From: Terrimicrobium sacchariphilum
GTDB taxonomy: Bacteria; Verrucomicrobiota; Verrucomicrobiia; Chthoniobacterales; Terrimicrobiaceae
Length of the DNA: 64,000 nucleotides
Assembly: GCF_001613545.1 (NCBI RefSeq)
Contig: NZ_BDCO01000002.1
Location: 2,294,001-2,358,000, forward strand
Direction: 5' to 3'
Shown here one piece after another: positions 6,680 to 56,863 of the stretch. Under the pieces are notes generated by a model. It saw only the letters and a program-made list of their open reading frames with translations, did no database searches and was not told the origin of the DNA. A program made the translations under genes and the position numbers. Position 1 is the first letter of the stretch, and each line of letters opens with the position of its first letter.

Positions 6680-6785
6680 TGTTTTGAATGCTCAGGGAGT
6701 GCAGGGGAGTATGCTCGACTTCGTCGCGGTATCCGTAGCGGATCTCGGACAGCGCGGGGATTATGTTTCCGCTGGTGTAAACCGG

Positions 6786-7268
6786 TCAGGGCGAGGCGTG
6801 GCCTCGTTTGTTGGCGACAATCAGGGAGTACTGGTTGATCTGCTGTGTTTGATTGACGCGCGAAATCTGGATGCGGACATTATAGGCCTCGTTGCGAGAG
6901 GCGGAATCTTGCAATCGCACAGGGTAGGAGGAAAGACTGTCGACAGGTTCGAGCTTCACGGTGGCAGTGTAGATCGTGGCCGGGTCGCCTGTCCGGGTGG
7001 TGACTCCGCTGTTATCGTAGGTAAACTTCCTGCCTTCCAGATCTGCGAGATTGGAGAAATCGGTAAGCGCGATCTCCTCCGATAATCCCTGAACAATCTG
7101 CGACTCGATCGTCTGCGACATCGCCATCCGGAAGTTGCTAAGTCCTGCAGGCAACAGTCCCACAAGGCTAACCATGGCAAAGGCCACGATGCCTAGCGAG
7201 ATCGTGACCTCGATCAGCGTAAAGCCGGAGCGACGGAGTGCCCGGGAATCATTTCGGGAGGAAATCAT
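6786..7268 (-). CDS. Verru_Chthon cassette protein B (GspI-like prepilin)
   Basis: This is a 160-aa protein with a type IV prepilin signal: leader MISSRNDSRALRRSG, cleavage before FTLIEV, Glu at mature position 5, and the hydrophobic helix TISLGIVAFAMVSLVGLLPAG. That start resembles GspI/PilV minor pseudopilins. It is expected to be processed by a prepilin peptidase (none in this window) and to assemble in the inner membrane/periplasm with protein A, whose gene follows on the same strand. The promoter region, shared with the divergent esterase gene, holds two TCAAWCYRTTGA copies (7318 and 7369), so the B-A arm is probably controlled with its neighbours. Confidence 0.82.
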   Translation of the reverse strand: MISSRNDSRALRRSGFTLIEVTISLGIVAFAMVSLVGLLPAGLSNFRMAMSQTIESQIVQGLSEEIALTDFSNLADLEGRKFTYDNSGVTTRTGDPATIYTATVKLEPVDSLSSYPVRLQDSASRNEAYNVRIQISRVNQTQQINQYSLIVANKRGHASP

Positions 7269-7317: not shown

Positions 7318-7329
7318 TCAAACTGTTGA
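7318..7329 (+). promoter_or_regulatory. Operator candidate 3 (TCAAACTGTTGA)
   Basis: An exact copy of the motif, 50 bp upstream of the cassette B start (complement strand) and 90 bp upstream of the chosen esterase start. It is well placed to act on either divergent promoter. Confidence 0.6.
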
Positions 7330-7368
7330 CGCGTCGCGATTGTGCCGCAGTAATCTTCCGCCGTGAGG

Positions 7369-7380
7369 TCAACAGATTGA
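7369..7380 (-). promoter_or_regulatory. Operator candidate 4 (TCAATCTGTTGA on complement)
   Basis: An inverted copy of the motif, 51 bp centre to centre from operator 3, in the same divergent gap. Two copies in one divergent region, as at 1562/1648, suggest cooperative or looping repression of both transcripts. Confidence 0.58.
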
Positions 7381-7418
7381 GTTCCGACCGGCTGGCGAGA
7401 ACTGACGTTTTGAATAGG

Positions 7419-9536
7419 ATGAGATCTCTTCCTTATCGGATGTCTCCTAAAGCCCACTCCTCCCTTATGCAGAGTTCTCATCTTTGTGATTCCTGGTTTC
7501 TGCGCGTCGGTTCCCTAATCCTGGGTGGCGTTCTGGTGTGTGTCTCTGCCCGGGCGGAGATTACTCTTCCTCGGATTTTTTCCGATCATGCCGTATTGCA
7601 GAAGTCGGATTCGGTGCCGGTATGGGGAAAGGGCACTCCCGGCGAGGCCGTCACAGTGACTCTCGACAAGGCGGTGGCTCAGACGGTGGTTGGTGAGGAT
7701 GGGAAATGGAAGGTGGTGCTGGACCTTGATACTGCAGGGGCGGGACCGCATGAACTGATCGCGCAGGGGAAAAATACCCTGACGGCCCATGACGTGCTGG
7801 TCGGCGAAGTCTGGCTTTGCTCCGGGCAGTCAAACATGGATTTCCCGTTGGGAGCCTTTCCGATCGCGAAGACCGAGGTGCCAGTTTCCGCGAATACCAA
7901 TCTTCGCCAGTTCTTGGTCAAACGCGGTTCATCGGCTGACCCTTTGGATGAAGTAGAGGGTGAGTGGATGGTGGCCGGCCCCGCCACGGCTGGAAAGTTC
8001 TCTGCCGTGGCATACTTCTTTGGCAAGCAGCTCCAGAGGGATATCAGCGCTCCCGTCGGTTTGATCAACTCCGCCCTCGGAGGTACGATGATTGAAGCCT
8101 GGATGAGCAATGATGCGCTGGCCGCCGATCCGGTGCTCAAGGAGGGGGCTGAGAAGGCGCAGAACGACCGCCGGGCATTTGATCAGTATTCCGAACGCTA
8201 CAAAAAGTGGCAGAAGAAATATGGGCGCGAGGACAGGAAGCAGGGAGACCCGGCGACCTTTGCCGGACCCGACGTGGATACCTCGGACTGGAGGCCTGTC
8301 ACGCTCCCGGGATTCTTTGCAGAGGCAGGATTGCCCGAGGCGGGGGCGATCTGGGTGCGGCGCAAGGTGCCGGCTCCATCGGCTCCAGATATCACGCCCA
8401 GAAAGGGCATTGACATGTTCCTTGATAACATTCGCGATTCCAATGAAGTCTACTGGAATGGCAGACGGGTCGGGAGCAGTCCGATCGACAGCGTCGTGCA
8501 TCGCTATGGCGTTAAGGGAGAGTATGTGAACGAGGGGGAGAACGTACTCGCATTGAGAGTCTTTAGTGCCGGAGAATCGGGCGGAGTTGCACCGGGAGGC
8601 TCGCGGTTTCAAGGAAATCATGTGCCATTCAAGGGAGAATGGCTGGCGAAGGTGGAGTATGCGTTTCCTCCGCTCGACAAGGCGGCGATGGATGAGTTTC
8701 CTAAGCGCCCGGCCACGCCCATCGACTCCCAGAACGTTGCCGGATACCTGTACAATGGCATGATTCACCCACTCATCCCGTATGCGATTCGCGGTGTGAT
8801 CTGGTATCAGGGCGAGGGAAATTGGAATCGCGGGTATCAGTATCGTGCGGCATTTCCCGCCATGATTGCCGACTGGAGGGCGAAATGGGGGCGCGGGGAT
8901 CTGCCCTTCTATTATTGCCAGATCGCCAATCTCGGGGCTCACAGCAAACAGCCGGAAAGGACATCAGCCTTTGCCGAGGTGCGAGAAGCTCAAAGCATGG
9001 CGCTATCGCTACCGAATACCGGTCAGGCAGTCTTGATTGATGTCGGTGAGGAGGAGGATATCCACCCTGCCGACAAGATGTCGGTGGGCGACCGGCTGGC
9101 GCGTATCGCGCTGGCGCAGACCTATGGCAAGGCCGTCGTATTCTCTGGTCCCGTGTTTGACTCCATGACGCTGGAGGGTGACAAGGCGCGGATTCGCTTC
9201 AAGCACGCGGCTCCGGGCCTTTTGGCCAGACCCATGCCGGAGACATATGCTCCCAACTCCAAGTCGGGGCGGATGGTTCCGCTCGTCCGCAACTCCCCGC
9301 GATCGGAGATCGAGGGTTTCGCCATCTGTGGAGAGGACAAAAAGTGGGAATGGGCCAATGCCAGGATCGAAGGAGAGACCGTCGTAGTCTGGGCGGATGC
9401 CGTGCCGAAACCGGTTGCCGTGCGGTATGCCTGGGCGCAGAACCCGTTCTGCAACCTGTACAACACAGCAGGACTGCCGGCGAATCCGTTTCGCACGGAT
9501 GATTTCCCGCTTGCTTCGAGGAATGCGAAGTATTGA
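7419..9536 (+). CDS. Secreted sialate O-acetylesterase (SASA/SGNH family)
   Basis: This enzyme is predicted to remove O-acetyl groups from sialic acids or other acetylated glycans outside the cytoplasm. I chose ATG 7419 because the frame opens at 7326 inside the operator region; ATG 7440 and 7467 are alternatives. A signal peptide (hydrophobic core VGSLILGGVLVCV, then SARAE) precedes the mature start ITLPRIFSDHAVLQ, typical of the family. The nucleophile Ser is in WLCSGQSNM (near residue 138), followed by GVIWYQGEGN and the Asp/His-containing block EEEDIHPADK. A beta-sandwich insertion (~280-380, containing VYWNGRRVG) looks like the galactose-binding domain seen in long members. It is the first gene of a three-gene secreted block between the two cassette arms. 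Confidence 0.88.
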   Translation: MRSLPYRMSPKAHSSLMQSSHLCDSWFLRVGSLILGGVLVCVSARAEITLPRIFSDHAVLQKSDSVPVWGKGTPGEAVTVTLDKAVAQTVVGEDGKWKVVLDLDTAGAGPHELIAQGKNTLTAHDVLVGEVWLCSGQSNMDFPLGAFPIAKTEVPVSANTNLRQFLVKRGSSADPLDEVEGEWMVAGPATAGKFSAVAYFFGKQLQRDISAPVGLINSALGGTMIEAWMSNDALAADPVLKEGAEKAQNDRRAFDQYSERYKKWQKKYGREDRKQGDPATFAGPDVDTSDWRPVTLPGFFAEAGLPEAGAIWVRRKVPAPSAPDITPRKGIDMFLDNIRDSNEVYWNGRRVGSSPIDSVVHRYGVKGEYVNEGENVLALRVFSAGESGGVAPGGSRFQGNHVPFKGEWLAKVEYAFPPLDKAAMDEFPKRPATPIDSQNVAGYLYNGMIHPLIPYAIRGVIWYQGEGNWNRGYQYRAAFPAMIADWRAKWGRGDLPFYYCQIANLGAHSKQPERTSAFAEVREAQSMALSLPNTGQAVLIDVGEEEDIHPADKMSVGDRLARIALAQTYGKAVVFSGPVFDSMTLEGDKARIRFKHAAPGLLARPMPETYAPNSKSGRMVPLVRNSPRSEIEGFAICGEDKKWEWANARIEGETVVVWADAVPKPVAVRYAWAQNPFCNLYNTAGLPANPFRTDDFPLASRNAKY

Positions 9537-9548
9537 GCATGGTCCGCT

Positions 9549-10955
9549 ATGCGGATTCCCCTTTGGTATGCAGCAGTCGCTGGATTGATGAGCCTGACCG
9601 TGATCGGTTCCGCGCAGGCGGAAACTACTGGATATTTTCATGTGGAGAAACGGGATGGTCGGTGGTGGCTGATCACTCCGAAGGGAGAGCCGTTCCTCTC
9701 CAAGGGAGTGTGTGCGGTGCGATATGCTCCGGACCCTATCCTGGGCACCGGACCCTCGCTCTACGGAGAAGCCAATGCGAAGAAATATCCCTCCGTCAAG
9801 GCATGGGCGGAGGCGAAGACCTCGCAATTGCTCGCATGGGATTTCAATACCCTCGGGGCGTGGTATGATGAAGGGATGGTGTTCGGAAAGGGTGACAGGC
9901 TCGCACGCACGCCTATTTTGAACATAGCGGCCGATTATGCCCGCAAACACATCGAGGCAGGCGGCGGAAAAAAGAGCGCCTGGGAGATGGGCGTGTTTCC
10001 GGATGTCTTCAGCCCAGACTTTGAAACATTTGCCCGCGAACGAGCACATAAGGTCTGCACCCCGCAGGCACAGGATTCCAATATACTGGGATGGTTTATC
10101 GACAATGAACTACGATGGGGACCCGACTGGCGCAGCCAGGATGAGCTGCTGGTGACTTTTCTGAACAGCTCGAAGGAGGCTCCAGGCCGGCATGCTGCCA
10201 TCGGTATGCTGCAAAAGCGCTACAAGGACATTGTCGCATTTAACGAAGTATGGAAAACCGGGGCGGCTTCTTGGGCGGAGTTGGTGCAGGGCGGAGAGAT
10301 CAAGAGCCCGTTTCCGCACAGGGAGAAGTCTAAACAGAACGAGGAGATCGAGCGGGTGGGGGATGACTCGGCTGGGAGACGTAAATTGTATGTGGCAGAT
10401 TGCGACGCGTTTCTTGGTCTGCTGGCTGAGCAGTATTTTGCCGTGACGCAAAAAGCGGTGAGAGAGGCTGCGCCCCATCACATGGTGTTTGGGTGCCGTT
10501 TTGCCTATACTCCGGCAAAGCCCGTACTCGAGGCTGCCGCCCGCCATGTGGATGTGATTTCCTTCAACTCCTACTCCACGGATCCCTCGGGGATCACGGA
10601 AAACTATGCAACATATGGCCGCCCGCTGATAGTCGGCGAGTTTGCCTTTCGAGCGGAGGATTCCGGACTGCCCAATACCAAGGGCGCCGGCCCGAAAGTG
10701 GCCAATCAAAAGGAACGTGCGGCAGCTTATGAAAAGTATGTGCGCGCGCTCGTATCGAATCCCTCGGTCGTCGGTTATCATTGGTTCAAGCATGTCGATG
10801 AGCCTGCCGAGGGGCGGTTTGATGGAGAGAATTCCAACTACGGTTTGCTGAAAATCAACGATGAACCCTATGAAGGATTCGTTGAAAAGGTGAAGGAGTG
10901 CAACGGCAAGGCCGATACCTGGCATGCGAACGCGCCTGTGACCGGGCGAAAGTAG
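9549..10955 (+). CDS. Secreted clan GH-A glycoside hydrolase (agarase/beta-galactosidase-like)
   Basis: This is a 468-aa exported hydrolase with signal peptide MRIPLWYAAVAGLMSLTVIG ending SAQAE. It has the two Glu residues of a retaining (beta/alpha)8 hydrolase: the probable acid/base E187 in WFIDNELRW and nucleophile E364 in LIVGEFAF. The sequence GYFHVEKRDGRWWLITPKG at the mature start is common in GH50/GH42-like proteins of Verrucomicrobia and Planctomycetes. I cannot fix the family or substrate. It starts 12 bp after the esterase stop, so the two are probably co-transcribed and may act on the same acetylated polymer. Confidence 0.72.
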   Translation: MRIPLWYAAVAGLMSLTVIGSAQAETTGYFHVEKRDGRWWLITPKGEPFLSKGVCAVRYAPDPILGTGPSLYGEANAKKYPSVKAWAEAKTSQLLAWDFNTLGAWYDEGMVFGKGDRLARTPILNIAADYARKHIEAGGGKKSAWEMGVFPDVFSPDFETFARERAHKVCTPQAQDSNILGWFIDNELRWGPDWRSQDELLVTFLNSSKEAPGRHAAIGMLQKRYKDIVAFNEVWKTGAASWAELVQGGEIKSPFPHREKSKQNEEIERVGDDSAGRRKLYVADCDAFLGLLAEQYFAVTQKAVREAAPHHMVFGCRFAYTPAKPVLEAAARHVDVISFNSYSTDPSGITENYATYGRPLIVGEFAFRAEDSGLPNTKGAGPKVANQKERAAAYEKYVRALVSNPSVVGYHWFKHVDEPAEGRFDGENSNYGLLKINDEPYEGFVEKVKECNGKADTWHANAPVTGRK

Positions 10956-11011
10956 CTGGCCTTTCCCGGTGCTGCATTGAGGGATGCCGTAGGTTTACGG
11001 GGGGTGATTGC

Positions 11012-11023
11012 TCAATGGTTTGA
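11012..11023 (-). promoter_or_regulatory. Operator candidate 5 (TCAAACCATTGA on complement)
   Basis: A copy of the motif in the gap between the GH-A hydrolase and the deacetylase, 82 bp before the chosen deacetylase start. It is identical to the variant at 22680. Confidence 0.55.
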
Positions 11024-11104
11024 GCTGGGTGTGCGTTTGCATATTGTGTGGAGACGTCCAAAGTGGACAGCAGGTTTTTCCGTCGTTCCCAAATTCCCCA
11101 AGAT

Positions 11105-12550
11105 ATGAAATCTCCTCTTTTCGCCCGTTGCCTGTCGGCGGCGTTTCTTTCGCTAGGAACCCTCGGTATCACCACATTATGTCCGGCCCAGGCTGACGCT
11201 CCGAAAATCACCACGACATACGTGATCCTGAAGCTGGATGATGTGACTAATGGTACGCCACAATGGAAACGAACTCTGGACTACCTGAAGAGCAAGAATA
11301 TCAAGTCATCTGCCGGCATCATCTGCAACTCGCTGGAAAGTGGTAAGCAGGCTTATTACGACTGGCTCAAGGAAGTGCAACAGTCGGGGGTGGTGGAGTT
11401 CTGGCTCCATGGTTACGACCACAAGCAGTGGAAGGAAGAGGGCAAAGACGTCTGGGAATTCAGCGGACCGTCCTATGAACAGCAGAAGGAGCACATTGCG
11501 AAAAGCCAGCAGCTTGCCAGGCAAATCCTCGGTGCGCCTTTTGCCGCGTTTGGTGCGCCTTTTAACAAGACGGACGAGGCAACGGTGAAGGCTTTGGCCG
11601 AGGACCCAGACATCAAGATCGTACTCTATGGGAATACCAAGGACGCCGCAGCGCTGCCGGGCAAGCTGATCCTGGATCGCACGGAGATGAACATTGAGGC
11701 TCCGCTTTTTCTCCCCAATTCCCAGAAGGTGAAGCACGACTACGAGGTGATGGCTGGTACGCGTGATTGTTTCGTGATCCAGGGGCATCCGAATCAATGG
11801 ACAGATGAGCGGTTTGCCGAGTTTCAGAAACTGGTGGAGTACCTGCAATCGCAGGGAGTCGTCTTCACGACGCCGACCGAATATCTCAAAACCCGCGATC
11901 CTGGTTCGCTCAAGGTGACGGTCGTAAATACGAAGGCAGTGGCTCCGCAGGCAGCCGCACCGATCGCAACCGAGCCACCGCCTCTCTCGGAGAATCTCCT
12001 GGCGAATGGAGACTTTGAGAGTGGCTCCCGGGGATGGTCTCTTTACGATCCGGAAAAGTCCTCATCCGCGGGCTGCCAGTTTCAGGTGGTGGCGGATAAC
12101 CCGCACGAGGGCAGTGGCACGATGGAACTCTCGTCGGCGGCGAATTCGCGCTATGCGGTGCTTCAGTACCTCAAGGGCGCTAATTTTATCGAAGGCCAAA
12201 AATATCGCGTTTCAGCCTGGGTGCGGGCCGGGGAGGATTTCGTAGCCGCATCAGGCACTCCGGGATTCCTGCTGCGGGTATCGATGTTTGGGCCAAACTT
12301 TAGCAACAGCGGAATGTACTTTCTGGGTTTCAATGGGATGGGGGGTGACAGTCCCTCGGTCCTGGCTGGACAGGAGGTGCCTCGGACATGGACCAAAGTC
12401 GAAGGTGTGTTCGAGATGGCTGCCGGTGTCGAAAAGGTTAATGTCTGTCTGTTGGTTGATCGCGGGGTGGGGCACGTGTACGTCGACGACGTCTCCATTG
12501 AACGCGTGGAGGACGCCACTCCTGTCGGTGCCGTAGCCACAACGAAATAG
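11105..12550 (+). CDS. Secreted polysaccharide-deacetylase-like protein with C-terminal CBM
   Basis: The chosen ATG at 11105 gives 481 aa with a clean signal peptide (MKSPLFARCLSAAF to CPAQA). An in-frame GTG at 11048 would put 19 polar residues before it. The N-terminal half fits the NodB/DUF2334-like deacetylase fold: the Asp pair in ILKLDDVTNG (D45/D46) and the metal-ligand-like FWLHGYDH (H102, H106). The C-terminal third (from NLLANGDFESGSRGWSLYD) is a CBM4/9-like beta-sandwich carbohydrate-binding domain. It should remove acetyl groups from a polysaccharide outside the cytoplasm, next to a sialate esterase and a glycoside hydrolase. The polymer is unknown. It has its own upstream copy of the motif. 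Confidence 0.75.
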   Translation: MKSPLFARCLSAAFLSLGTLGITTLCPAQADAPKITTTYVILKLDDVTNGTPQWKRTLDYLKSKNIKSSAGIICNSLESGKQAYYDWLKEVQQSGVVEFWLHGYDHKQWKEEGKDVWEFSGPSYEQQKEHIAKSQQLARQILGAPFAAFGAPFNKTDEATVKALAEDPDIKIVLYGNTKDAAALPGKLILDRTEMNIEAPLFLPNSQKVKHDYEVMAGTRDCFVIQGHPNQWTDERFAEFQKLVEYLQSQGVVFTTPTEYLKTRDPGSLKVTVVNTKAVAPQAAAPIATEPPPLSENLLANGDFESGSRGWSLYDPEKSSSAGCQFQVVADNPHEGSGTMELSSAANSRYAVLQYLKGANFIEGQKYRVSAWVRAGEDFVAASGTPGFLLRVSMFGPNFSNSGMYFLGFNGMGGDSPSVLAGQEVPRTWTKVEGVFEMAAGVEKVNVCLLVDRGVGHVYVDDVSIERVEDATPVGAVATTK

Positions 12551-12590
12551 CAGGCCGCCGCGATGTCCGGCAAGCGGTGCATTGAGCGAT

Positions 12591-12602
12591 TCAACAGATT
12601 GA
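12591..12602 (-). promoter_or_regulatory. Operator candidate 6 (TCAATCTGTTGA on complement)
   Basis: A copy of the motif in the gap before cassette genes C and D, identical to the variant at 7369 before the B-A arm. Both halves of the split cassette therefore carry the same site type. Confidence 0.58.
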
Positions 12603-12711
12603 TCGGGAGGGTTCTTGAGGGCTTCCGGTGAGTCACATAGGATCAGATGATCCCCTCCCAATCATGAACGATTCCTGGATTCCGGCAAATGAGGCGGGAA
12701 GGGCAAAAGCG

Positions 12712-13818
12712 ATGGATCAGGCTTTGGTGACAACTGACGAGCTTCCAACCATGCTGACACGCCTGGACCGGCGGGGTCGGCGATCTCTTCGAGGATTTTC
12801 CCTCCTGGAGATGCTGGCTGCAAGTGCTGTGTTCCTTTTGCTAATCGGCCTGGTCCTGAAGATGACGCAGGCGACGGCGGACTCATGGTCCAGTTCGACA
12901 GGCAAGACCGAGGGGTTTCGCGATGCTCGTGCGGCCTTTGCCACGATCACCAAGGCAGTCAGCCAGGCCACGCTCAATCCCTATTTTGACTACGCCGATG
13001 CGGGCGGAAATTTCCGAGATCAGGTTTCCTCGGCGAGCTTCACGCCAACACAATATATTCGTCGGTCGGATCTCCAGTTCATCACAGGAAAGAGTCTCGT
13101 CGACGCCGGAGTGCAGAATCCTGTTTCGCATGCGATCTTCTTTCTGGCTCCGCTGGGGTATTCCCTTGAGGCGAATTATCGCAACATGGATGGCTTCCTT
13201 AACGCCTGTGGATTCTATGTGTTTTATGGGGAGGACCCCGCCATGCCCGCCCGCCTTTCCGGCGCGATCCCAGCTTCGCGAAACCGATTCCGGCTCATGC
13301 AGTTTTTGCAGCCCACGGAGAATCTCTCGATCTACGACGTCTCGGTGACTGGGGGATCTGCCAACTGGCGAAATACGAAGTGGTTCGGCAGCGCTCTCGC
13401 CAGAAACTCCGCTCCCGTCTCCCAACTGGCGGAGAATGTGGTGGCGCTGGTGATCCGCCCCAAGGCATCTGATGCAGACGAGGCAAAAGCGACCGCCACA
13501 CTTGCCCCGGATTACGAATACGACAGCCGGGACCCTGCATCGGCAGAGAGCGTGAATCAACTGCCGCCCGTGGTTGAGATTGTAATGGTGGTGATAGACG
13601 ATACATCCGCGCAGCGGCTCGGGAATGAAACGACGCCCCCCAATCTCGGGTTGAACAACCTCTTTCAGGATGCTTCCAGGCTCGATGCCGATCTTTCCGA
13701 ACTGGAGAAAAACCTTGGCGCAATCAATGGCAACGCGGCGGGGAACAAGATTCCGCTCAGATACCAGATATTCCGTACGGAAGTTGCGTTGCGGAGTGCA
13801 AAATGGAGTAGTCAATGA
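12712..13818 (+). CDS. Verru_Chthon cassette protein C (GspJ-like prepilin)
   Basis: This is a 368-aa prepilin-like protein. ATG 12712 is preceded at a suitable distance by GGGAAGGG, a good ribosome-binding site. ATG 12664 (no such site) and ATG 12751 are alternatives. The leader ends RSLRG, with cleavage before FSLLEM (Glu at mature position 5) and the helix LAASAVFLLLIGLVLKM. Length and the SLLEML helix start resemble GspJ. The remainder is a globular extracytoplasmic domain, found in my recollection only in the Verrucomicrobia cassette C family. Its stop overlaps the start of D (ATGA), so C and D are translationally coupled. The partner arm B-A lies 5.4 kb away on the other strand. Confidence 0.8.
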   Translation: MDQALVTTDELPTMLTRLDRRGRRSLRGFSLLEMLAASAVFLLLIGLVLKMTQATADSWSSSTGKTEGFRDARAAFATITKAVSQATLNPYFDYADAGGNFRDQVSSASFTPTQYIRRSDLQFITGKSLVDAGVQNPVSHAIFFLAPLGYSLEANYRNMDGFLNACGFYVFYGEDPAMPARLSGAIPASRNRFRLMQFLQPTENLSIYDVSVTGGSANWRNTKWFGSALARNSAPVSQLAENVVALVIRPKASDADEAKATATLAPDYEYDSRDPASAESVNQLPPVVEIVMVVIDDTSAQRLGNETTPPNLGLNNLFQDASRLDADLSELEKNLGAINGNAAGNKIPLRYQIFRTEVALRSAKWSSQ

Positions 13819-14495
13819 CCCTGCAAACCGGCATTCGAGACTTCCGAAACATGGACTTCAGAGAGGTGCCTCGCCCATCTCCAGGGGGCTTTTCTCTTGT
13901 CGAACTCCTTATTGTGATTGCCATCATGGGAATACTGACAGCCCTGGTCATGCCCGCGGTGTCCAGTATCTCCCGCGGTTACGGATTGACGACGGCAGGG
14001 CACGCCGTGATGAACAACCTCGTGCAGGCTCGTCAGGCCGCGTTGACCAGGGGATACCCGGTGCAGGTGCGAATCTACAAACTGCCCCCTTATAGTCAGC
14101 CGAATACGGCGACTCCGGAGACATATCGCGCGATGCAGGCCTTCATCGAGAGCGACCCGATCGTAACCAACGGAACGACATCGGTCACAGTCACTCCGCT
14201 TTCGCGTCCCGTCTTTTTCAATGCACCAGTTGAGATCCTAAATGATACAAAAAGCTCGCCGATCCTTGGTCTGGCTTACGAGTCGGCTCCGCAGGAAGTG
14301 CTCCCGGGTTATGGCAAGAACTACGGTTATGTCTCATTTCGCTTTAAGCCGAGCGGGCAATCAGACCTGCCAGCCGATGCTGCGGGATTGACTCTCGTGC
14401 TCGGCCCGAGCAGCAACGGCGGTGCTCTGCCCGGGAACTTTCGGGCCATTGAGATCGATACGATCACCGGAGCGGTGAGAGATTATTCGCCATAG
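13815..14495 (+). CDS. Verru_Chthon cassette protein D (GspH-like prepilin)
   Basis: This is a 226-aa prepilin-like protein with leader ending PSPGG, cleavage before FSLVEL, Glu at mature position 5 and a classic pilin helix LLIVIAIMGILTALVMPAV. The following NNLVQARQAALTRGYPVQV is typical of GspH/FimT-type minor pseudopilins. It would be handled by prepilin peptidase and the general secretion/pilus machinery, neither of which is in this window. It overlaps C by 4 bp. An internal ATG at 13851 would give a shorter, more usual leader. With A, B and C it completes the four-protein cassette. Confidence 0.82.
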   Translation: MTLQTGIRDFRNMDFREVPRPSPGGFSLVELLIVIAIMGILTALVMPAVSSISRGYGLTTAGHAVMNNLVQARQAALTRGYPVQVRIYKLPPYSQPNTATPETYRAMQAFIESDPIVTNGTTSVTVTPLSRPVFFNAPVEILNDTKSSPILGLAYESAPQEVLPGYGKNYGYVSFRFKPSGQSDLPADAAGLTLVLGPSSNGGALPGNFRAIEIDTITGAVRDYSP

Positions 14496-14540
14496 GGTGC
14501 ATCCGGCTGAAGGGAACTGCGCTGGCTCGCTCTCGATCTG

Positions 14541-14552
14541 TCAACAGTTTGA
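14541..14552 (-). promoter_or_regulatory. Operator candidate 7 (TCAAACTGTTGA on complement)
   Basis: An exact copy of the commonest motif variant, 71 bp before the PEP-CTERM gene. It places that gene in the same putative regulon as the cassette. Confidence 0.6.
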
Positions 14553-14623
14553 ACTCAGGTCGCCTTGCGGGACCATGACTTAATTAAGAGAGTTCGTTCG
14601 TTCCTAAAAGCTAACACCCCACC

Positions 14624-15946
14624 ATGATAAAAGAATCCCTCTCCTCTCGCTCCGCGAGGCATTTGGTTTATGCGCTAGCCGGCGCTGCTTCACTCGCGGT
14701 TCATTCAGCAGCGGCAGCAACCTATTCCTGGGTTCCCTCGACGGGTGGAAACTGGGATCTGACTACTGCCAACTGGAATGATGGCGTTTCGACAACTGCA
14801 TGGGTGAATGGAGTTGGTAATGCGGCATCGTTTGGCGCATTCGGAGCCGGTCCGACGATTTCACTCACCACGAATATCGTTGCCGGAACGTTGACGACCA
14901 ATGGCGGTGCGACACTCGTGCTTAATGGTGCCGGAACTCTGGATGTCACAACGATTACAACGGGAAACAGCGGGAGCATTGATCTTTCTGTAAAACTGAC
15001 CGGTAGTCACGGCTTGACGCTGACTAGTACAGGCGCCGCCGGTAGTCAGGGACGCCTAAACATAAAGGCTGCTGCCGATTATACCGGGGATACGACGTTG
15101 TCTGGAACGGCCTACCTGCTGTCGGACAATGTGAGCAATGCTCTTCCGATAACGACGACGTTGAACATGTCCTCGGGAACGACGTTCCGATTTGCAAAGA
15201 ACGGCGTTACGCAGGAAATCGCCGGACTCGCCGGTAACGGCACGGTGACATCGAGCGCGACGGGTAGCGTCTTGACACTGCGGACGAAATCCGGAGTAAC
15301 GACTGCCTATTCGGGTTCCATGGGCTTTACTGGAGGCGGTGTTCTCAGTGTTGTTGTAGCCGGCTCCGGAACCCAGACGTTGAGTGGTGGAAACTTGAAC
15401 TACAATGGTTCTACAACGGTTTCATCAGGAACGCTGCTCCTCGGTGCAAGTCTTAATAACTCATCGTCCGTCACAGTAAGTGGAGGCACGCTGAACAGCA
15501 GCGCTCTTGACACCAAGCTTGGCGCGGGTGCAGTTTCCATGAGTTCCGGAACCATTGATATTCGCGGCTCTGCTGCGGGCAAGTTCACCCTTGCGGCAGG
15601 GCAGAATTTCACAACGACTGGAGGAACCATCAAGTTTGATCTCGGCACGGGCACTGATCAAATTATCGGTTCCGGGGTGGGAGCGTTTAGCCTGACGAAT
15701 ACGACGCTGGCATTAATCTTGGGAACGGGTTTTGACTATAGCAATAGCTACACGCTATTCTCTGGATTTTCCGGTGGTTCTCTTTCTGGCTTGGTTGTTT
15801 CCGGTTACGATACGACCAACTACACGGCATCATTGAGCAATGCGGGCGTCCTTTCGTTTGCCGCGGTGCCGGAGCCATCGACGATCGCGCTTGGTGCGCT
15901 GGGTGTCGCCTTGATCGCATTCCGACTCCGTCGGCGTGCGATCTGA
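14624..15946 (+). CDS. PEP-CTERM protein with autotransporter-associated beta-strand repeats
   Basis: This is a 440-aa surface or exported protein. An N-terminal signal peptide ends near HSAAAATYSW, and the opening WVPSTGGNWDLTTANWNDG is typical of autotransporter-associated strand-repeat proteins. The body is Gly/Ser/Thr-rich with alternating hydrophobic residues (for example GTLTTNGGATLVLNGAGTL), as expected for a right-handed beta-solenoid. The C-terminus has the sorting signal VPEPSTIALGALG, a hydrophobic helix and the basic tail RLRRR. PEP-CTERM proteins are processed by an exosortase, and none is encoded here. The gene follows cassette C-D on the same strand and carries its own copy of the motif. 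Adhesin or matrix protein is a guess. Confidence 0.88.
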   Translation: MIKESLSSRSARHLVYALAGAASLAVHSAAAATYSWVPSTGGNWDLTTANWNDGVSTTAWVNGVGNAASFGAFGAGPTISLTTNIVAGTLTTNGGATLVLNGAGTLDVTTITTGNSGSIDLSVKLTGSHGLTLTSTGAAGSQGRLNIKAAADYTGDTTLSGTAYLLSDNVSNALPITTTLNMSSGTTFRFAKNGVTQEIAGLAGNGTVTSSATGSVLTLRTKSGVTTAYSGSMGFTGGGVLSVVVAGSGTQTLSGGNLNYNGSTTVSSGTLLLGASLNNSSSVTVSGGTLNSSALDTKLGAGAVSMSSGTIDIRGSAAGKFTLAAGQNFTTTGGTIKFDLGTGTDQIIGSGVGAFSLTNTTLALILGTGFDYSNSYTLFSGFSGGSLSGLVVSGYDTTNYTASLSNAGVLSFAAVPEPSTIALGALGVALIAFRLRRRAI

Positions 15947-15965
15947 GATGCTGTTTGTCTCTCGC

Positions 15966-16013
15966 CAAGGCAGAGGTGCGAGCGGTTTGGGGGGATTGCT
16001 CGCCTTTGCCTTG
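15966..16013 (+). terminator. Stem-loop after the PEP-CTERM gene
   Basis: CAAGGCAGAGGTGCGAGC (15966-15983) pairs imperfectly with GCTCGCCTTTGCCTTG (15998-16013) around a 14-base loop, 20 bp after the PEP-CTERM stop. Only a short mixed T-rich stretch follows, so it is either a weak intrinsic terminator or a 3'-end stabilising hairpin. Confidence 0.5.
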
Positions 16014-16079
16014 TTGCCTTTTGGGTCAATTGTGAATAATGAGTTATCCGTCCTTCCCCAAAGGTAAGATTCATCCCTT

Positions 16080-16760
16080 ATGAACACGCGTCCACTGCTG
16101 GTTGCATTTTCATTCCTCGCTGTCACCGCATTTGCTGATGAGGCGATTTTCCAAGAGTCCATCCTTGAACTGCCGAAAACAAAGGGTTGGAAGACCCTGG
16201 GAACGGTCCAGGCGCAAGGAGGCCGACTTGTGCTGAACGCGGCGGGGGATGAGGGAAATTTCGCAAACGGAGTCTTGATGACTACCGAGGGAGTCGAGGC
16301 GCTGAATTTTACCGAGCATCCTTTGCAGATCAAGCTCTCCGGACTTGAGATGAGCGGTGACGCCCCCGAATCCAAGAAAGCCTTTGTCGTTTTATTGAGC
16401 ACGGATCGAAACTCGGAGACTTCCTCTGCCTATGTGAGGTTTTGCCTGAACGGCGATGGGTCTTTCAATGTGGCGAGCCCCAGGGGAGGAGGTGGCGAGA
16501 ATGTCCCGCCAGTTGATGTGCTGAACGGAAAGGTGATGCTGCCTGTCTCCATGATCACCATTTCGCTCAGCCGGGAGCAGGTGACGGTGAAGATCAAAGA
16601 CGCGTCGGGCGAGCAGGAGTTTAGCGGGGAAGTCGGTGACAAAATCGACCTTTCGCTCTGGCAGGGGACGTCTCCGTATTTTGTCCTAAAGGCGGTCAGG
16701 CGCCCGGCAGCGGGATTTTTTGAGGCTTCGGTAGGCGGGCTGGAGGTTGTTTCCCAGTAG
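16080..16760 (+). CDS. Secreted protein of unknown function
   Basis: This is a 226-aa protein with signal peptide MNTRPLLVAFSFLAVTAFA, then DEAIFQES. The mature part is rich in short beta-forming stretches (RLVLNAAGDEGNFANGVLMT, SMITISLSREQVTVKI) and has the overall look of a concanavalin-like or carbohydrate-binding beta-sandwich. I recognise no motif or catalytic residues. It stands after the PEP-CTERM stem-loop and 18 bp before the sugar MFS transporter, so it may belong to the MFS/GH1 transcript. A glycan-binding role would fit but is only contextual. Confidence 0.6.
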   Translation: MNTRPLLVAFSFLAVTAFADEAIFQESILELPKTKGWKTLGTVQAQGGRLVLNAAGDEGNFANGVLMTTEGVEALNFTEHPLQIKLSGLEMSGDAPESKKAFVVLLSTDRNSETSSAYVRFCLNGDGSFNVASPRGGGGENVPPVDVLNGKVMLPVSMITISLSREQVTVKIKDASGEQEFSGEVGDKIDLSLWQGTSPYFVLKAVRRPAAGFFEASVGGLEVVSQ

Positions 16761-16778: not shown

Positions 16779-18191
16779 ATGTCTCACGTTTCGCCTCCTG
16801 ATCGTTCCCTCGGTGGATCCGGAGGTGCGCCTTCCGGGGAGGTTGTGGCGCTTTCGCCCTCTGGAGCGAGAGTGTGGAAGGTCGGTTCACTTCAGTATAC
16901 TGCGGGCGGGCTGGTTGTTTTGTTCCTCCTGCTGTTGCTGGGGGACTTTTCCTGGTCGATGCGAGATCGTTCGGTGGGGCCGATGGCCCAATGGTATCTC
17001 AAGCACCTGGATGTTCCGAATTATCTCTTCGCTCTTCTGATCAGTTCTTTTCCGGCCTTGGTGGGACTAGTCCTCGGGCCAATTATCAGCGTCAAATCCG
17101 ATAGGCACCGCGGTCCCCGCGGGCGGCGTATTCCCTTCCTTCTCGTCACAACTCCGATCGCTGCTGCGGGAATGATCGGTCTCGGGGTCACCCCGCATTT
17201 GGCTCGCTGGGTGCATGGACATTTCCCGGGACAGAGCGAGGTTTTTGTGGCGGTCGTCTGTTTCGGCGTTTTCTGGGCGATATTCGAGTTTGCGACCATT
17301 GCTGCGATGGCGATCTTTGGCGGCCTCATCAATGACGTGGTGCCCCAGGAGTTTCTTGGTCGTTTCTATGGGCTTTTTCGTGCGGTAAGCCTCATCGATG
17401 GGATGATTTTCAACTTCTGGATCCTGGGGAAGGTCGAGACGTACTACACCGTGATTCTTGTCATTATCGGATTCTTTTACGGCCTTTCGTTCTACTGGGT
17501 GTGTCTGAAGGTGAGGGAGGGTGACTACCCACCTCCAGAGACACACGCGAACACACACCCGCTGGCCGAGGTGAAGACGTATTTCCGCGAGTGCTTTCAC
17601 CGTCCCTATTATGTCGGCGTGTTTGTCATGATGATGGCGGCCTCGCTCGTTTTCATGCCGGTGAATATCTTCATGATTCCCTACGCGGACAGCCTGGGAA
17701 TGAGCATGGACACCTACGGGAAATGCCTTGCATTGACTTTCCTTATCTCGCTCATCCTTGCCTATCCGCTCGGCTGGCTGGCCGATGTCTTTCATCCGCT
17801 ACGCATGTGCATCTTCAGCCTGGTCGGGTACGCTGTCGTGACGGGCTGGGGCGCTCTGAATGCGAGGACGCCGGAGACCTTTGCCATCGCGCTGGTGCTT
17901 CACGGCGTACTGTCGGGATGTTACTTCACCGTGGGTGCGTCGTTGGGTGCGCGGCTTTTTCCGCGGACCCGCTACGCACAGTTTGCCAGCGCCTCGGGTA
18001 TCGTTGGTTCTCTCGGTGCGATGACGGTCGGTCCGCTGGTTGGCGGTTTGGTGGATGCGACGGGCAATGCCTACTATCATACGTTCACGGCAGGTTGTGT
18101 GATGGCCGTGATCGCGCTGCTGGCAGCGATCGGTGTTTACCTCCGGTTCCTGAGCCTCGGGGGACCCCGGGGCTATGTGGCACCGGAGTAA
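16779..18191 (+). CDS. MFS sugar transporter (GPH/SLC45-like)
   Basis: This is a 470-aa inner-membrane protein with about 12 hydrophobic segments. The loop between segments 2 and 3 reads SDRHRGPRGRRIPF, which matches the conserved RGRRxPF-type loop of glycoside-pentoside-hexuronide and sucrose/maltose-type symporters. The N-terminal ~35 residues are polar and cytoplasmic. The GH1 gene begins 11 bp after the stop, so the pair probably imports a disaccharide or glycoside and splits it inside the cell. Proton or sodium symport is likely by family. The sugar is not identifiable. Confidence 0.82.
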   Translation: MSHVSPPDRSLGGSGGAPSGEVVALSPSGARVWKVGSLQYTAGGLVVLFLLLLLGDFSWSMRDRSVGPMAQWYLKHLDVPNYLFALLISSFPALVGLVLGPIISVKSDRHRGPRGRRIPFLLVTTPIAAAGMIGLGVTPHLARWVHGHFPGQSEVFVAVVCFGVFWAIFEFATIAAMAIFGGLINDVVPQEFLGRFYGLFRAVSLIDGMIFNFWILGKVETYYTVILVIIGFFYGLSFYWVCLKVREGDYPPPETHANTHPLAEVKTYFRECFHRPYYVGVFVMMMAASLVFMPVNIFMIPYADSLGMSMDTYGKCLALTFLISLILAYPLGWLADVFHPLRMCIFSLVGYAVVTGWGALNARTPETFAIALVLHGVLSGCYFTVGASLGARLFPRTRYAQFASASGIVGSLGAMTVGPLVGGLVDATGNAYYHTFTAGCVMAVIALLAAIGVYLRFLSLGGPRGYVAPE

Positions 18192-18202
18192 TTTTTTAAA
18201 TC

Positions 18203-19588
18203 ATGGCAAACTTTCCAAAGGACTTCTTCTGGGGTGCGGCAGCGGCCGCTTATCAAATCGAAGGATCGGCACCCATCGATGGCAAGGGTGCCTGTGTCTG
18301 GGATATGTTTAGTGCAATCCCGGGCAAAACCTTTGAGGGGCATTCCGGCGCGAGCGCCTGCGATCATTATCATCGATATGAGGCGGATGCTGCGATGATG
18401 AGCGAACTGGGCATCCCCAACTATCGTCTCTCCATTTCATGGCCGCGCATTTTGCCCGCGGGTCGCAGTGCGATTAATGCGAAGGGGGTGGATTTTTATG
18501 ACCGCCTCGTTGATGTTTTGCTTGCGAAGGGCATTCAGCCCTGGGTGACTCTATTTCATTGGGACTATCCCTATGAACTCTACAAGCTCGGAGGCTGGCT
18601 GAACCCGGAGAGTCCGCAGTGGTTTGCCGAATATGTGCAGATCGTGGTTGAAAAGCTGTCTGATCGTGTGTCGCGGTGGATGACGATTAACGAGCCGCAG
18701 TGTTTCGTGGGCCTTGGACATCAGACCGGCTATCATGCGCCCGGTGACCGGCTAGGATTGAAAGAGGTTCTTCAGGCGGCCCATCATGTGTTGATCGCTC
18801 ATGGTCGGGCTGTTCAGGTGATACGGAGTCACGCTCGCACTGGGCCGACCATCGGGTGGGCGCCTTGCGGAGCGATGGCGATGCCGGAGGATGAATCCAG
18901 TTCCGCCGATATCGAGGCGGCCCGAAAGGCAGTGTTCTGCTTCGGCCCGGGAAATCCGCTGTATTCTCCTGCCGAACCCCTGTGGAGCGTAGCCTGGTGG
19001 TCCGACGCGGCTGTGCTCGGGAGGTATCCGGAAGGGGAACTCGAAGTCTACGGAGGTGCTGCGCCGATGTTTACGGAGGAAGAAATGCGAACCATCGCAC
19101 AGCCACTCGATTTTTACGGAGTCAATATTTATAACGGAACCGTCGTGCGGGCGGGTGGGGACGGCGGGATCGAGCGAGTACCACGTGCACCCGGCGCGCC
19201 GGTGACCGCCCTCAAGTGGCCGGTTACGCCGACGAGTCTGTACTGGGGGCCGAAATTCCTGAACGAGCGCTACAACCTGCCCGTGGTCGTGACGGAGAAC
19301 GGCCTGTCCGGCATGGATTGGGTCTCGCTCGACGGCCGGGTGCATGATTCCCAGCGAATCGATTTCCTGCAACGTTATCTGCGTGAGCTCGACCGGGCGA
19401 TCGGGGACGGTGTGGATGTGCGGGGGTATTTCCAATGGTCTATCATGGATAATTTTGAATGGTCGGAGGGCTACAAGGAGCGTTTTGGCCTCGTCCATGT
19501 CGACTACGAGACCCAGAAACGCACGCCGAAGGATTCCGCCTATTGGTATCGTGATGTCATCACGACCAATGGCCGTGTGCTTTACTAG
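18203..19588 (+). CDS. GH1 beta-glucosidase
   Basis: This is a cytoplasmic retaining beta-glycosidase of 461 aa, the usual GH1 length, without a signal peptide. The start FPKDFFWGAAAAAYQIEG is the GH1 N-terminal signature. The acid/base is E164 in TINEP, the nucleophile E365 in VVVTENG, and the late motifs FQWSIMDNFEWSEGY and RFGLVHVDYET are intact. It hydrolyses terminal beta-linked glucose (or galactose or fucose in some members) from oligosaccharides. It is linked to the upstream MFS transporter, which probably supplies the substrate. It converges on the alpha-glucosidase gene, which ends at 19590. Confidence 0.95.
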   Translation: MANFPKDFFWGAAAAAYQIEGSAPIDGKGACVWDMFSAIPGKTFEGHSGASACDHYHRYEADAAMMSELGIPNYRLSISWPRILPAGRSAINAKGVDFYDRLVDVLLAKGIQPWVTLFHWDYPYELYKLGGWLNPESPQWFAEYVQIVVEKLSDRVSRWMTINEPQCFVGLGHQTGYHAPGDRLGLKEVLQAAHHVLIAHGRAVQVIRSHARTGPTIGWAPCGAMAMPEDESSSADIEAARKAVFCFGPGNPLYSPAEPLWSVAWWSDAAVLGRYPEGELEVYGGAAPMFTEEEMRTIAQPLDFYGVNIYNGTVVRAGGDGGIERVPRAPGAPVTALKWPVTPTSLYWGPKFLNERYNLPVVVTENGLSGMDWVSLDGRVHDSQRIDFLQRYLRELDRAIGDGVDVRGYFQWSIMDNFEWSEGYKERFGLVHVDYETQKRTPKDSAYWYRDVITTNGRVLY

Positions 19589-21265: not shown

Positions 21266-22624
21266 TCAGTGACTGTGCGGGAGCGGGTTGAGCCAATACT
21301 TTCCGCCCGCCAGAAAGTCCTGGGCGTCGATGAAGACGCCGGCCGTCCATCCCATCATGGAAGGCGTCTCCGCCTCCGGAATATCGTCCCCTCCTGTTGC
21401 CAGGTTGACCGGATTTTTGAAATATCCAGCCTCATTTCTGGCTATATGGGAGCCATCGGCGACATTGTACTTTTCCCAAAGATCTCCGGTCAGATTGAAA
21501 GCCCGGGTGACGCAGTCGATATATTTTTCCGCAATACGCCGGCCTTCGGCAATGTATCCATATCGCGCGAGACCGCGATAGACGATATGCTGTATGGGAG
21601 GCCACATGTTGGGATGGTCCCACTGGAAGGGAGTGGCGTTTTCCGGTGGAAGGGTGGCGGTTATGCCATGGTCAAACTCCAGTTTCGGCAGAGCATTGGC
21701 AACAACCGACGCTGCCTGCTCCGGGGTGGCGAGTCCGACCCAGAGAGGCTGAAACAGGCCGGCATTCCACACGACGGATCGCCGGCGATTCACATGATCA
21801 TAATCGAACCATGCGCCTTGCTCCGCATCCCAGCAGAGAGAGTTGATGAGGGTTCGTCGACTATCGGCCCGCTCAGCCCAGCGTACGCTTTCCTCCCCTT
21901 CGGTCCATCGGGCGAGGAGTGTCTCGTAGAGCCAAAGATTGCTATTGAGGTCGACCGGGAAGAAATCGGGACAGCGCTTGGCGAATCGCGAGTTCATATC
22001 CCAGCCAGTTTCACATTCGGACATCACCCGGGCGACGAAGTCCAGATCGTCCTCTGCACATGCCTCGGGCAATCCGAGGCGATCCCTTACGGTGGGGAAG
22101 AATTCGATTAGCTCCTCGCGGGTAGCGTGGCAGCCATGGTGAGCGAGGCCGGGAGAAACGGTGCGGCGCTTAACCCAGAATTCATACTCCCGCTTGAGCA
22201 ATGGTATCGCCTCTTGCAGGAACTCCGTATCCTGACTGGACTCCTCAGCCACGAGACCTACCAGCGGAGCGAGATAGGGAGACTGGGAGCGGCTGAGGTA
22301 ATACGTGCGGTTGCCGTTGGGGACGAAGCCAAACCTTTCTACTTCGGCAAGAAGATTGCGTGCATTGTTAAGAGCAAGGTCCCTCCTGCCTGTGGCGGCC
22401 AGGCCCAGACAGGTGAAATAGGTGTCCCAGTAATAGAGCTCCTGGAAGACATCTTTGCGTGTTGGAATCGTGTAGGGGTAAGGCAGCCCGATCAGCGTCT
22501 CGTCGTCTCTCGGCGAAAAGCGAACGGTATCGTCCCAATGGGATGCGATGAACGCCCGCACCTGATCGGGAGACGATGGGGGCATCGATTGGGATGTGGC
22601 AACGGGGAGAGCAGTAACCGGCAT
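21266..22624 (-). CDS. GH37-type trehalase
   Basis: This is a 452-aa (alpha/alpha)6-barrel hydrolase without a signal peptide, predicted to split trehalose into two glucose molecules in the cytoplasm. The family landmarks are YYWDTYFTCLGLA (~88-100), PNGNRTYYLSRSQSP, the signature-like ETGWDMNSRF (usual form ESGWDFSSRF, with the catalytic Asp) and QWDHPNMWPPIQH near the C-terminal third. It is first in an operon with the alpha-glucosidase, so the operon handles small alpha-linked glucosides. A motif copy lies 56 bp upstream of the start. The Met and Asn changes in the signature leave some room for a related alpha-glycosidase activity. Confidence 0.85.
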   Translation of the reverse strand: MPVTALPVATSQSMPPSSPDQVRAFIASHWDDTVRFSPRDDETLIGLPYPYTIPTRKDVFQELYYWDTYFTCLGLAATGRRDLALNNARNLLAEVERFGFVPNGNRTYYLSRSQSPYLAPLVGLVAEESSQDTEFLQEAIPLLKREYEFWVKRRTVSPGLAHHGCHATREELIEFFPTVRDRLGLPEACAEDDLDFVARVMSECETGWDMNSRFAKRCPDFFPVDLNSNLWLYETLLARWTEGEESVRWAERADSRRTLINSLCWDAEQGAWFDYDHVNRRRSVVWNAGLFQPLWVGLATPEQAASVVANALPKLEFDHGITATLPPENATPFQWDHPNMWPPIQHIVYRGLARYGYIAEGRRIAEKYIDCVTRAFNLTGDLWEKYNVADGSHIARNEAGYFKNPVNLATGGDDIPEAETPSMMGWTAGVFIDAQDFLAGGKYWLNPLPHSH

Positions 22625-22679: not shown

Positions 22680-22691
22680 TCAAACCATTGA
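22680..22691 (+). promoter_or_regulatory. Operator candidate 8 (TCAAACCATTGA)
   Basis: A copy of the motif in the 78-bp gap upstream of the trehalase gene (minus strand) and after the esterase stop. It is identical to the site before the deacetylase (11012, complement) and suggests that the regulon includes intracellular disaccharide hydrolases. Confidence 0.55.
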
Positions 22692-56851: not shown

Positions 56852-56863
56852 TCAACGGTTTGA
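56852..56863 (-). promoter_or_regulatory. Operator candidate 9 (TCAAACCGTTGA on complement)
   Basis: A copy of the motif in the 77-bp gap between mnhG and the GH32 gene, 52 bp before the GH32 start. A second repeat-like stretch (AACGTTGCTGCGTTTACG) follows at once and resembles the half-sites near the second LacI gene. Confidence 0.55.

Follow-up and report, generated by a model that had tools for sequence, protein, structure and literature searches.

The gene at positions 14624–15946 (+) of the analysed stretch, a 64,000-nucleotide segment (the window) of the genome (4,751,807 bases in 3 contigs) of the soil bacterium Terrimicrobium sacchariphilum NM-5T, probably encodes a beta-solenoid surface protein that undergoes export and exosortase sorting and is one of several outputs of a LacI-type regulon for glycan utilisation. 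The gene would thus be a co-regulated, separable module and not an obligate partner of the Verru_Chthon pseudopilin cassette beside which it lies. The original prediction is partly supported: comparisons of sequence attach the gene to the LacI regulon and not to the cassette as such. Its membership of the regulon is supported by a candidate operator that congeners and genomes of other genera retain before the lacI, esterase, deacetylase, cassette, and PEP-CTERM genes.

The PEP-CTERM gene and its product

The gene immediately follows cassette genes C and D among the ORFs of the window and encodes a 440-aa protein with an N-terminal hydrophobic helix. Its beta-strand repeat region and its C-terminus, composed of VPEPST, a helix, and RLRRR, are as the original prediction had described. 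The C-terminal segment, AVPEPSTIALGALGVALIAFRLRRRAI, matches the Pfam PEP-CTERM family (PF07589) with 26.6 bits (cut-off, 20.7) and contains the PEP motif, hydrophobic helix (residues 418–439), and basic cluster of an exosortase-substrate tail. One stretch (residues 243–274) matches the beta-strand repeat TIGR02601 with 21.9 bits (cut-off, 19.85). Our protein resembles the PEP-CTERM/exosortase (EpsH) proteins of Haft 2006 (PMC1569441) in the order of PEP motif, helix, and basic cluster and, putatively, in a signal-like helix at the N-terminus; the presence of an exosortase in the genome and the apparent single-gene unit following an intergenic region are further points of likeness. A search for exosortase genes, which had been proposed along with the prediction, yielded a single PF09721 match in the genome (153.1 bits; contig C2, 146836–147621). 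This lone exosortase would have ~99 PEP-CTERM proteins to serve.

A terminator-like hairpin with a weak T tail (AAGGCAGAGG...CTTTGCCTTG; 15963–16014, +) was identified 3' of the gene, and a similar stem is predicted at the corresponding position in both congeners (fold z of -2.15 in T. sacchariphilum and of -0.62 and -0.37 in the congeners). The hairpin is not strong by folding energy alone; its presence downstream suggests that the PEP-CTERM gene may form a single-gene unit.

The AlphaFold2 model of the protein, based on 3 sequences (mean pLDDT, 68.1; pTM, 0.67), is an all-strand solenoid with helices at the N-terminus (residues 9–26) and the C-terminus (418–439); the former, which is hydrophobic and signal-like, falls in the low-confidence part of the model, in which residues 1–65 are poorly modelled. 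The protein is a predicted parallel beta-helix. The top Foldseek match of the model was the beta-helix 7JVI (E, 5.1e-4), which is the xylan-binding module CBM89 (PMC8810776), followed by autotransporter passengers. Structural alignment with 7JVI, the nearest solved fold, gave a Z of 25.7 over 313 residues with an rmsd of 3.5 and 15% identity, and alignments with the passengers UpaB and pertactin gave Z values of 22.0 and 18.0, respectively. A profile built from the three ortholog sequences retrieved 0 PDB sequences at E<=1, and so did not match 7JVI; the likeness to 7JVI is therefore one of fold, and membership of CBM89, for which sequence similarity to its founder 7JVI was the test, is not claimed. 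A type V autotransporter was rejected: the Pfam scan detected the PEP-CTERM and PATR families only, with no C-terminal beta-barrel translocator domain, and the protein terminates in the PEP-CTERM helix. What it has in common with TIGR02601 proteins and autotransporter passengers is the repeat above cut-off and the fold alignment, whereas the PEP-CTERM tail and the lack of a barrel set it apart. To our knowledge, no function is known for most PEP-CTERM proteins of the Verrucomicrobiota.

Organisation of the locus

The locus contains a LacI-family repressor gene (1661–2755, +; PF00356, 44.3 bits; PF13377, 41.3 bits), flanked by genes for a 2-hydroxyacid dehydrogenase (472–1509, -), the 1305-aa cassette protein A (2762–6679, -; TIGR02600, 1009.5 bits), and cassette protein B, a GspI-like pseudopilin (6786–7268, -; TIGR02598, 72.4 bits against a cut-off of 51.4, with a weak match to TIGR01707 gspI). 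These are followed by genes for an SASA-type carbohydrate esterase (7326–9536, +; PF03629, 62.8 bits; true start probably near 7440–7470), a GH42-like putative beta-galactosidase (9549–10955, +; PF02449, borderline at 21.2 bits against a cut-off of 21), a DUF2334 polysaccharide deacetylase with CBM4_9 (11048–12550, +; PF10096, 53.3 bits; PF01522, 39.7 bits; PF02018, 37.6 bits), cassette protein C (12628–13818, +; TIGR02599, 275 bits, cut-off 256.5), and cassette protein D, a GspH-like pseudopilin (13815–14495, +; TIGR02596, 102.9 bits, cut-off 70; weak gspH match, 31.2 bits). Downstream of the PEP-CTERM gene lie genes for a 226-aa protein conserved in the locus (16080–16760, +; 72 and 69% identity in the congeners), an MFS sugar transporter (16779–18191, +; PF07690, 81.2 bits), and a trehalase-like GH37 enzyme (21266–22624, -; PF01204, 275 bits).

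All four cassette proteins are thus present above cut-off. The A–D genes of Verru_Chthon cassettes are typically contiguous; that order is absent from the T. sacchariphilum locus, where the cassette is split into the divergent pairs A-B (2762–7268, -) and C-D (12628–14495, +). It is likewise split in the congener LR76 and is a contiguous B-C-A-D in UBA1321 (8289–14577 of its locus) and LW23, two genomes from other genera.

Operator-like palindromes

The commonest exact variant of the palindrome in the locus, TCAACAGTTTGA (n=4, against n=2 for TCAACAGATTGA), is located at 14541–14552 (+), 71 bp before the ATG (14624) of the PEP-CTERM gene, in agreement with the original prediction. Its other copies lie before the 2-hydroxyacid dehydrogenase gene (1562–1573, -), at the lacI start codon, which it abuts (1648–1659, -), and before cassette genes B-A (7318–7329, -). 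The TCAACAGATTGA copies precede the esterase gene (7369–7380, +) and cassette genes C-D (12591–12602, +), and the variant TCAATGGTTTGA precedes the deacetylase gene (11012–11023, +) and, at a distance of 56 bp, the GH37 gene (22680–22691, -). When TCAACNGNTTGA was searched with <=1 mismatch, 13 sites were found in the window against 3.5 expected, a number reached in 0 of 100 shuffles, and eight of them are the sites just listed, which precede or abut genes of the locus. One exact consensus match (TCAACGGTTTGA; 56852–56863) lies in the window outside the locus.

Most of these sites are retained in the congeners LR76 and MAG JAFKMU. The site before the dehydrogenase gene and the TCAATGGTTTGA variant before the deacetylase gene (identical in both) are found in each of them, as are sites before GH37; the site before the esterase is also kept in both, and those before B-A and C-D in LR76. 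The 12-mer abutting lacI is the same in LR76 and LW23 and has one mismatch in JAFKMU. Upstream of the PEP-CTERM gene, a 14-nt block, TGTCAACAGTTTGA, is identical at 14/14 positions in the three congeners, while the surrounding DNA has diverged. Genome-wide, exact TCAACAGNTTGA sites fall largely inside the locus (6/8 in T. sacchariphilum, 6/7 in LR76, and 3/4 in JAFKMU). A LacI HTH with a ligand domain and conserved palindromes upstream of several genes, the sequence features of a LacI regulon, are therefore all found here, and the adjacent LacI-family protein is the likely reader of the palindromes. That it would be sugar-responsive, as had been proposed, is judged only from its LacI/Peripla_BP_3 domains.

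Conservation in congeners

LR76 has the same locus (genes for LacI, A, B, esterase, GH42-like protein, deacetylase, C, D, PEP-CTERM protein, 226-aa protein, MFS, and GH37), and its LacI, cassette, PEP-CTERM gene, and operators are all kept. In JAFKMU, the syntenic locus contains genes for LacI, esterase, GH42-like protein, deacetylase, PEP-CTERM protein, 226-aa protein, MFS, GH13, and GH37; none of cassette genes A–D is present in it, and its 35 kb contain no N. LacI is 87% identical in both congeners. The GH1 gene of the window has no match in either congener locus, and the GH13 gene has none in that of LR76.

PEP-CTERM proteins of JAFKMU and LR76 are about 74–75% and about 51–54% identical, respectively, to that of T. 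sacchariphilum. The LR76 protein (17982–19352 of its locus) differs in the signal region, while the neighbouring genes are 69–97% identical; this divergence could reflect fast evolution or replacement. It could also point to a role that is changing or relaxed, and in this respect counts against our main reading.

A tie of the PEP-CTERM gene to the cassette only was rejected, because the JAFKMU locus has this gene with its operator and lacks A–D. The best cassette A of JAFKMU in the genome scan is only 43% identical, against 85% in LR76, which indicates that the missing cassette has not simply been relocated. The simpler reading would be that JAFKMU has lost its cassette, since UBA1321, outside the genus, has a cassette as well as a PEP-CTERM gene.

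Conservation in other genera

The 226-aa protein was matched in only 2 of 141 genomes of the class, T. sacchariphilum included, which indicates that the locus as a whole has a narrow distribution; the broader view was therefore drawn from cassette A. When genomes were scanned with an alignment of eight cassette A proteins, 370 relatives were obtained; the best of these make up 79 loci, 67 of them outside the genus.

The nearest of these outside the genus, UBA1321, has an orthologous locus (LacI, 50% identity; esterase, 57%; deacetylase, 58%; cassette A, 59%, in a B-C-A-D-MFS operon). Its PEP-CTERM protein is 35% identical over 432 residues to the 440-aa protein; it scored 36.4 bits with our home-built tail model and matched no Pfam family at E<=1e-3. 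The exact 12-mer precedes the deacetylase gene (2122), the PEP-CTERM gene (5958), and the cassette operon (8231), and these 3/3 sites are the only ones in the genome, while copies with one mismatch precede the esterase (8185) and MFS (14599) genes. The claim that the PEP-CTERM gene stands under one repressor is well supported by this operator beside a 50%-identical LacI gene and by the 14-nt block of the three congeners.

In LW23, the exact 12-mer precedes cassette gene B, and four of six exact copies precede genes for the LacI relative (56% identity), a dehydrogenase relative, the deacetylase, and cassette B. These genes are dispersed over the genome (loci L237, L238, and L239 on contig C45 and the cassette locus), each retaining the motif; the repressor would then have to act on the cassette in trans. 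Despite the cassette and its operator, 0 PEP-CTERM tails were found in the LW23 genome with PF07589. A PEP-CTERM gene kept without a cassette in JAFKMU and a cassette kept without such tails in LW23 indicate that the two are separable outputs.

PEP-CTERM genes near cassettes

The T. sacchariphilum genome contains 23 cassette A genes (13 loci above the TIGR02600 cut-off and 10 weaker), 99 PEP-CTERM tails above cut-off, and 44 LacI genes above cut-off. The ten weaker A genes are far under the cut-off yet full-length and mostly lie beside B/C/D-like pilins, as in a divergent second type of cassette. At least one clear tail escaped the PF07589 search, that of g302 (C2:1683016–1684857, ending ...AVPEPVTGALFVGALASLWILRRRATSQG), a 613-aa strand-repeat protein with a VPEP...RRR tail, which lies beside the cassette A gene at C2:1678838.

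The comparison was made at each of three distance cut-offs (5, 10, and 12 kb), with approximate values for the sizes of two contigs and for where the ten weak A genes end. A PEP-CTERM tail lies <=12 kb from 20 of the 23 A genes, against 9.65 expected under a uniform model or 11.9 under local shifts of 20–150 kb, and <=10 kb from 17 of 23 (local-shift P, 0.004); at <=5 kb there is no enrichment (6 of 23 against 5.6–7.0 expected). The test was repeated at 14 kb using measured contig sizes and the centres of the A genes. At this distance, a tail accompanies 19 of 25 LacI genes that lack a cassette in 25 kb and 6 of the 7 A genes that lack LacI; the share is 43% for random positions and 27% for those remote from both LacI and cassette.

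In other genera, 29 tails were found in the flanks of the 67 cassette loci (from the best 79 of 370) against 6.15 expected, and 15 lie <=5 kb from A against 3.27 expected. Co-occurrence in other genomes, on which the predicted link had been staked, is therefore seen statistically, though in only 24 of the 67 loci (12 of the 67 at <=3 kb), the other 43 having no tail in the flanks examined. The Poisson values treat loci as independent, the expected density is from Pfam counts and the flank counts from the home-built tail model, and carbohydrate islands are uncontrolled in this comparison, so that the magnitude of the excess should be taken as approximate. Two further cassette-bearing genomes resemble LW23 in having 0 tails.

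We regard the association of cassettes and PEP-CTERM genes across these genomes as real. The predicted tie to the cassette holds in this statistical sense, but not as a strict one, in view of JAFKMU, LW23, and the cassette-free LacI genes with a PEP-CTERM neighbour.

The association might arise from a direct partnership in which the pseudopilus-like tip of the cassette exports, displays, or anchors the PEP-CTERM protein as part of one machine. Same-strand PEP-CTERM genes adjoin cassette A in Prosthecobacter (L121, 86 bp), Verrucomicrobium (L125, 71 bp; L122, 651 bp; L137, 623 bp), and Chthoniobacter flavus (L131, 431 bp), and three others lie downstream of A on the same strand (L078, L089, and L093; 106–906 bp), giving eight immediate neighbours. 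In the four scanned (L121, L122, L125, and L131), the proteins contain 4–10 TIGR02601 stretches. These neighbours and the excess at <=5 kb in other genera favour a shared machine, but the PEP-CTERM gene kept in JAFKMU without any cassette, the three cassette-bearing genomes without tails, the 43 loci without flank tails, and the lack of enrichment at <=5 kb in T. sacchariphilum argue against it. Nor do the counts support a beta-repeat type special to cassette neighbours in this genome: such repeats occur in 12 of 26 near and 21 of 71 far proteins (Fisher P, 0.15; the tails at C2:256571 and C2:1518176, for which no ORF could be assigned, were left out of the 99). We consider a direct partnership unlikely.

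Even less probable, in our estimation, is a functionless proximity caused by clustering in glycan islands, with the PEP-CTERM protein serving general exopolymer or biofilm formation. The 19 of 25 cassette-free LacI genes and the abundance of tails in the genome would fit such clustering, as would the classical link of PEP-CTERM to exopolysaccharide given in PMC1569441. However, the operator before the PEP-CTERM gene is precise, locus-specific, and kept across genera, and the local-shift control reaches only 11.9 against the 20 observed.

Private palindromes at other cassette loci

Other cassettes in the T. sacchariphilum genome carry palindromes of their own. At C2:705272, ATCAAACATTTGAT occurs five times against 0.05 in shuffles, with copies 36 bp before the PEP-CTERM gene and 26 bp before the first gene of the cassette operon, which encodes 159 aa, and at C2:795528, CACATCCGGATGTG occurs six times against 0.1, the copy at the PEP-CTERM gene having two mismatches. 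Different palindromes are common to the PEP-CTERM gene and the pilin operon at C2:3496343 and C2:1145943, while at C3:591929 the palindrome is not upstream of the PEP-CTERM gene. The private sites keep their genes and near-identical spacing in the orthologous loci examined (those at 705k and 795k in JAFKMU, and that at 1145k in JAFKMU and LR76).

These palindromes were initially chosen with the upstream regions of PEP-CTERM genes included. With those regions excluded, a motif above shuffles was discovered in 3 of 23 loci, and the local PEP-CTERM gene carries it in 2 of 3, in imperfect copies with 3 and 2 mismatches; at <=2 mismatches, none of 95 and none of 96 PEP-CTERM genes elsewhere had a match. 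The same 14-mer scan did not rediscover the 12-mer of the window. A palindrome-joined PEP-CTERM gene and cassette is, on these sequence data, a recurrent architecture that has been demonstrated in only a few loci.

At C2:3491273–3501459, ATTTTATGCAAAAT joins the PEP-CTERM gene, a divergent 371-aa neighbour, and the cassette operon, and no LacI gene was mapped nearby. The 371-aa protein is a possible regulator, and some cassettes may be run by a regulator of a non-LacI type. By analogy with this cassette (C2:3496343), the motif of the window might be read by some regulator different from the neighbouring LacI protein. Such an arrangement seems highly improbable, since the motif abuts lacI in T. 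sacchariphilum, LR76, and LW23 and is kept at each of the dispersed LW23 genes.

Relation to known systems and proposed function

In PMC1569441, PEP-CTERM genes of Proteobacteria are reported to have sigma-54-associated upstream sites, whereas the T. sacchariphilum gene is apparently tied to a LacI glycan regulon; the words 'cassette' and 'autotransporter' are absent from its text. A study of Verruconatronum alginivorum (PMC13274419) reports over-expression on alginate, a polysaccharide, of a pseudopilin gene with 67 homologs in that genome; its text contains neither 'exosortase' nor 'autotransporter'. PEP-CTERM proteins in outer-membrane fractions of Akkermansia differ between mucin- and glucose-grown cells, according to PMC4960237. 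We take both reports as independent hints. The text of PMC5615132 contains none of the terms PEP-CTERM, prepilin, autotransporter, LacI, and cassette. Among open-licence PMC papers, the term 'Verru_Chthon cassette' had no match and no printed role for these cassettes was found, and the pairing of cassette and PEP-CTERM protein was not found among the matches listed for Verrucomicrobia with PEP-CTERM, prepilin, LacI, pseudopilin, or polysaccharide.

We propose that, without inducer, the LacI protein would occupy the palindromes and silence the enzymes, the cassette, and the surface protein, and that a sugar derived from the target polysaccharide would free the repressor. After export and cleavage by the single exosortase, the PEP-CTERM protein would remain at the cell surface or within the exopolymer; there its beta-helix, to go by fold similarity and a model of pLDDT 68, would most likely bind glycan or hold cells to it. 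The cassette pseudopilins may act on secreted enzymes via a type II-like apparatus. The combined adhesion and digestion surface of the original prediction would correspond to these roles, which we infer for the set of surface protein and cassette.

More broadly, and only tentatively, the Verrucomicrobiota may possess a glycan-capture architecture that replaces the SusCD type of Bacteroidetes, in which one local repressor would control enzymes, a pseudopilin cassette, and an exosortase-sorted beta-solenoid glycan-binding protein. Such sets would number about two dozen loci, some with private operators, and a surface coat and pseudopilus tip would be switched for each polysaccharide. The operator joining the cassette and the PEP-CTERM gene to carbohydrate enzymes provides a concrete and testable condition, one sugar and one repressor. 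Co-regulation, which the sequences support, can now be distinguished from working together, for which two natural genomes, each without one or the other component, may serve as controls.
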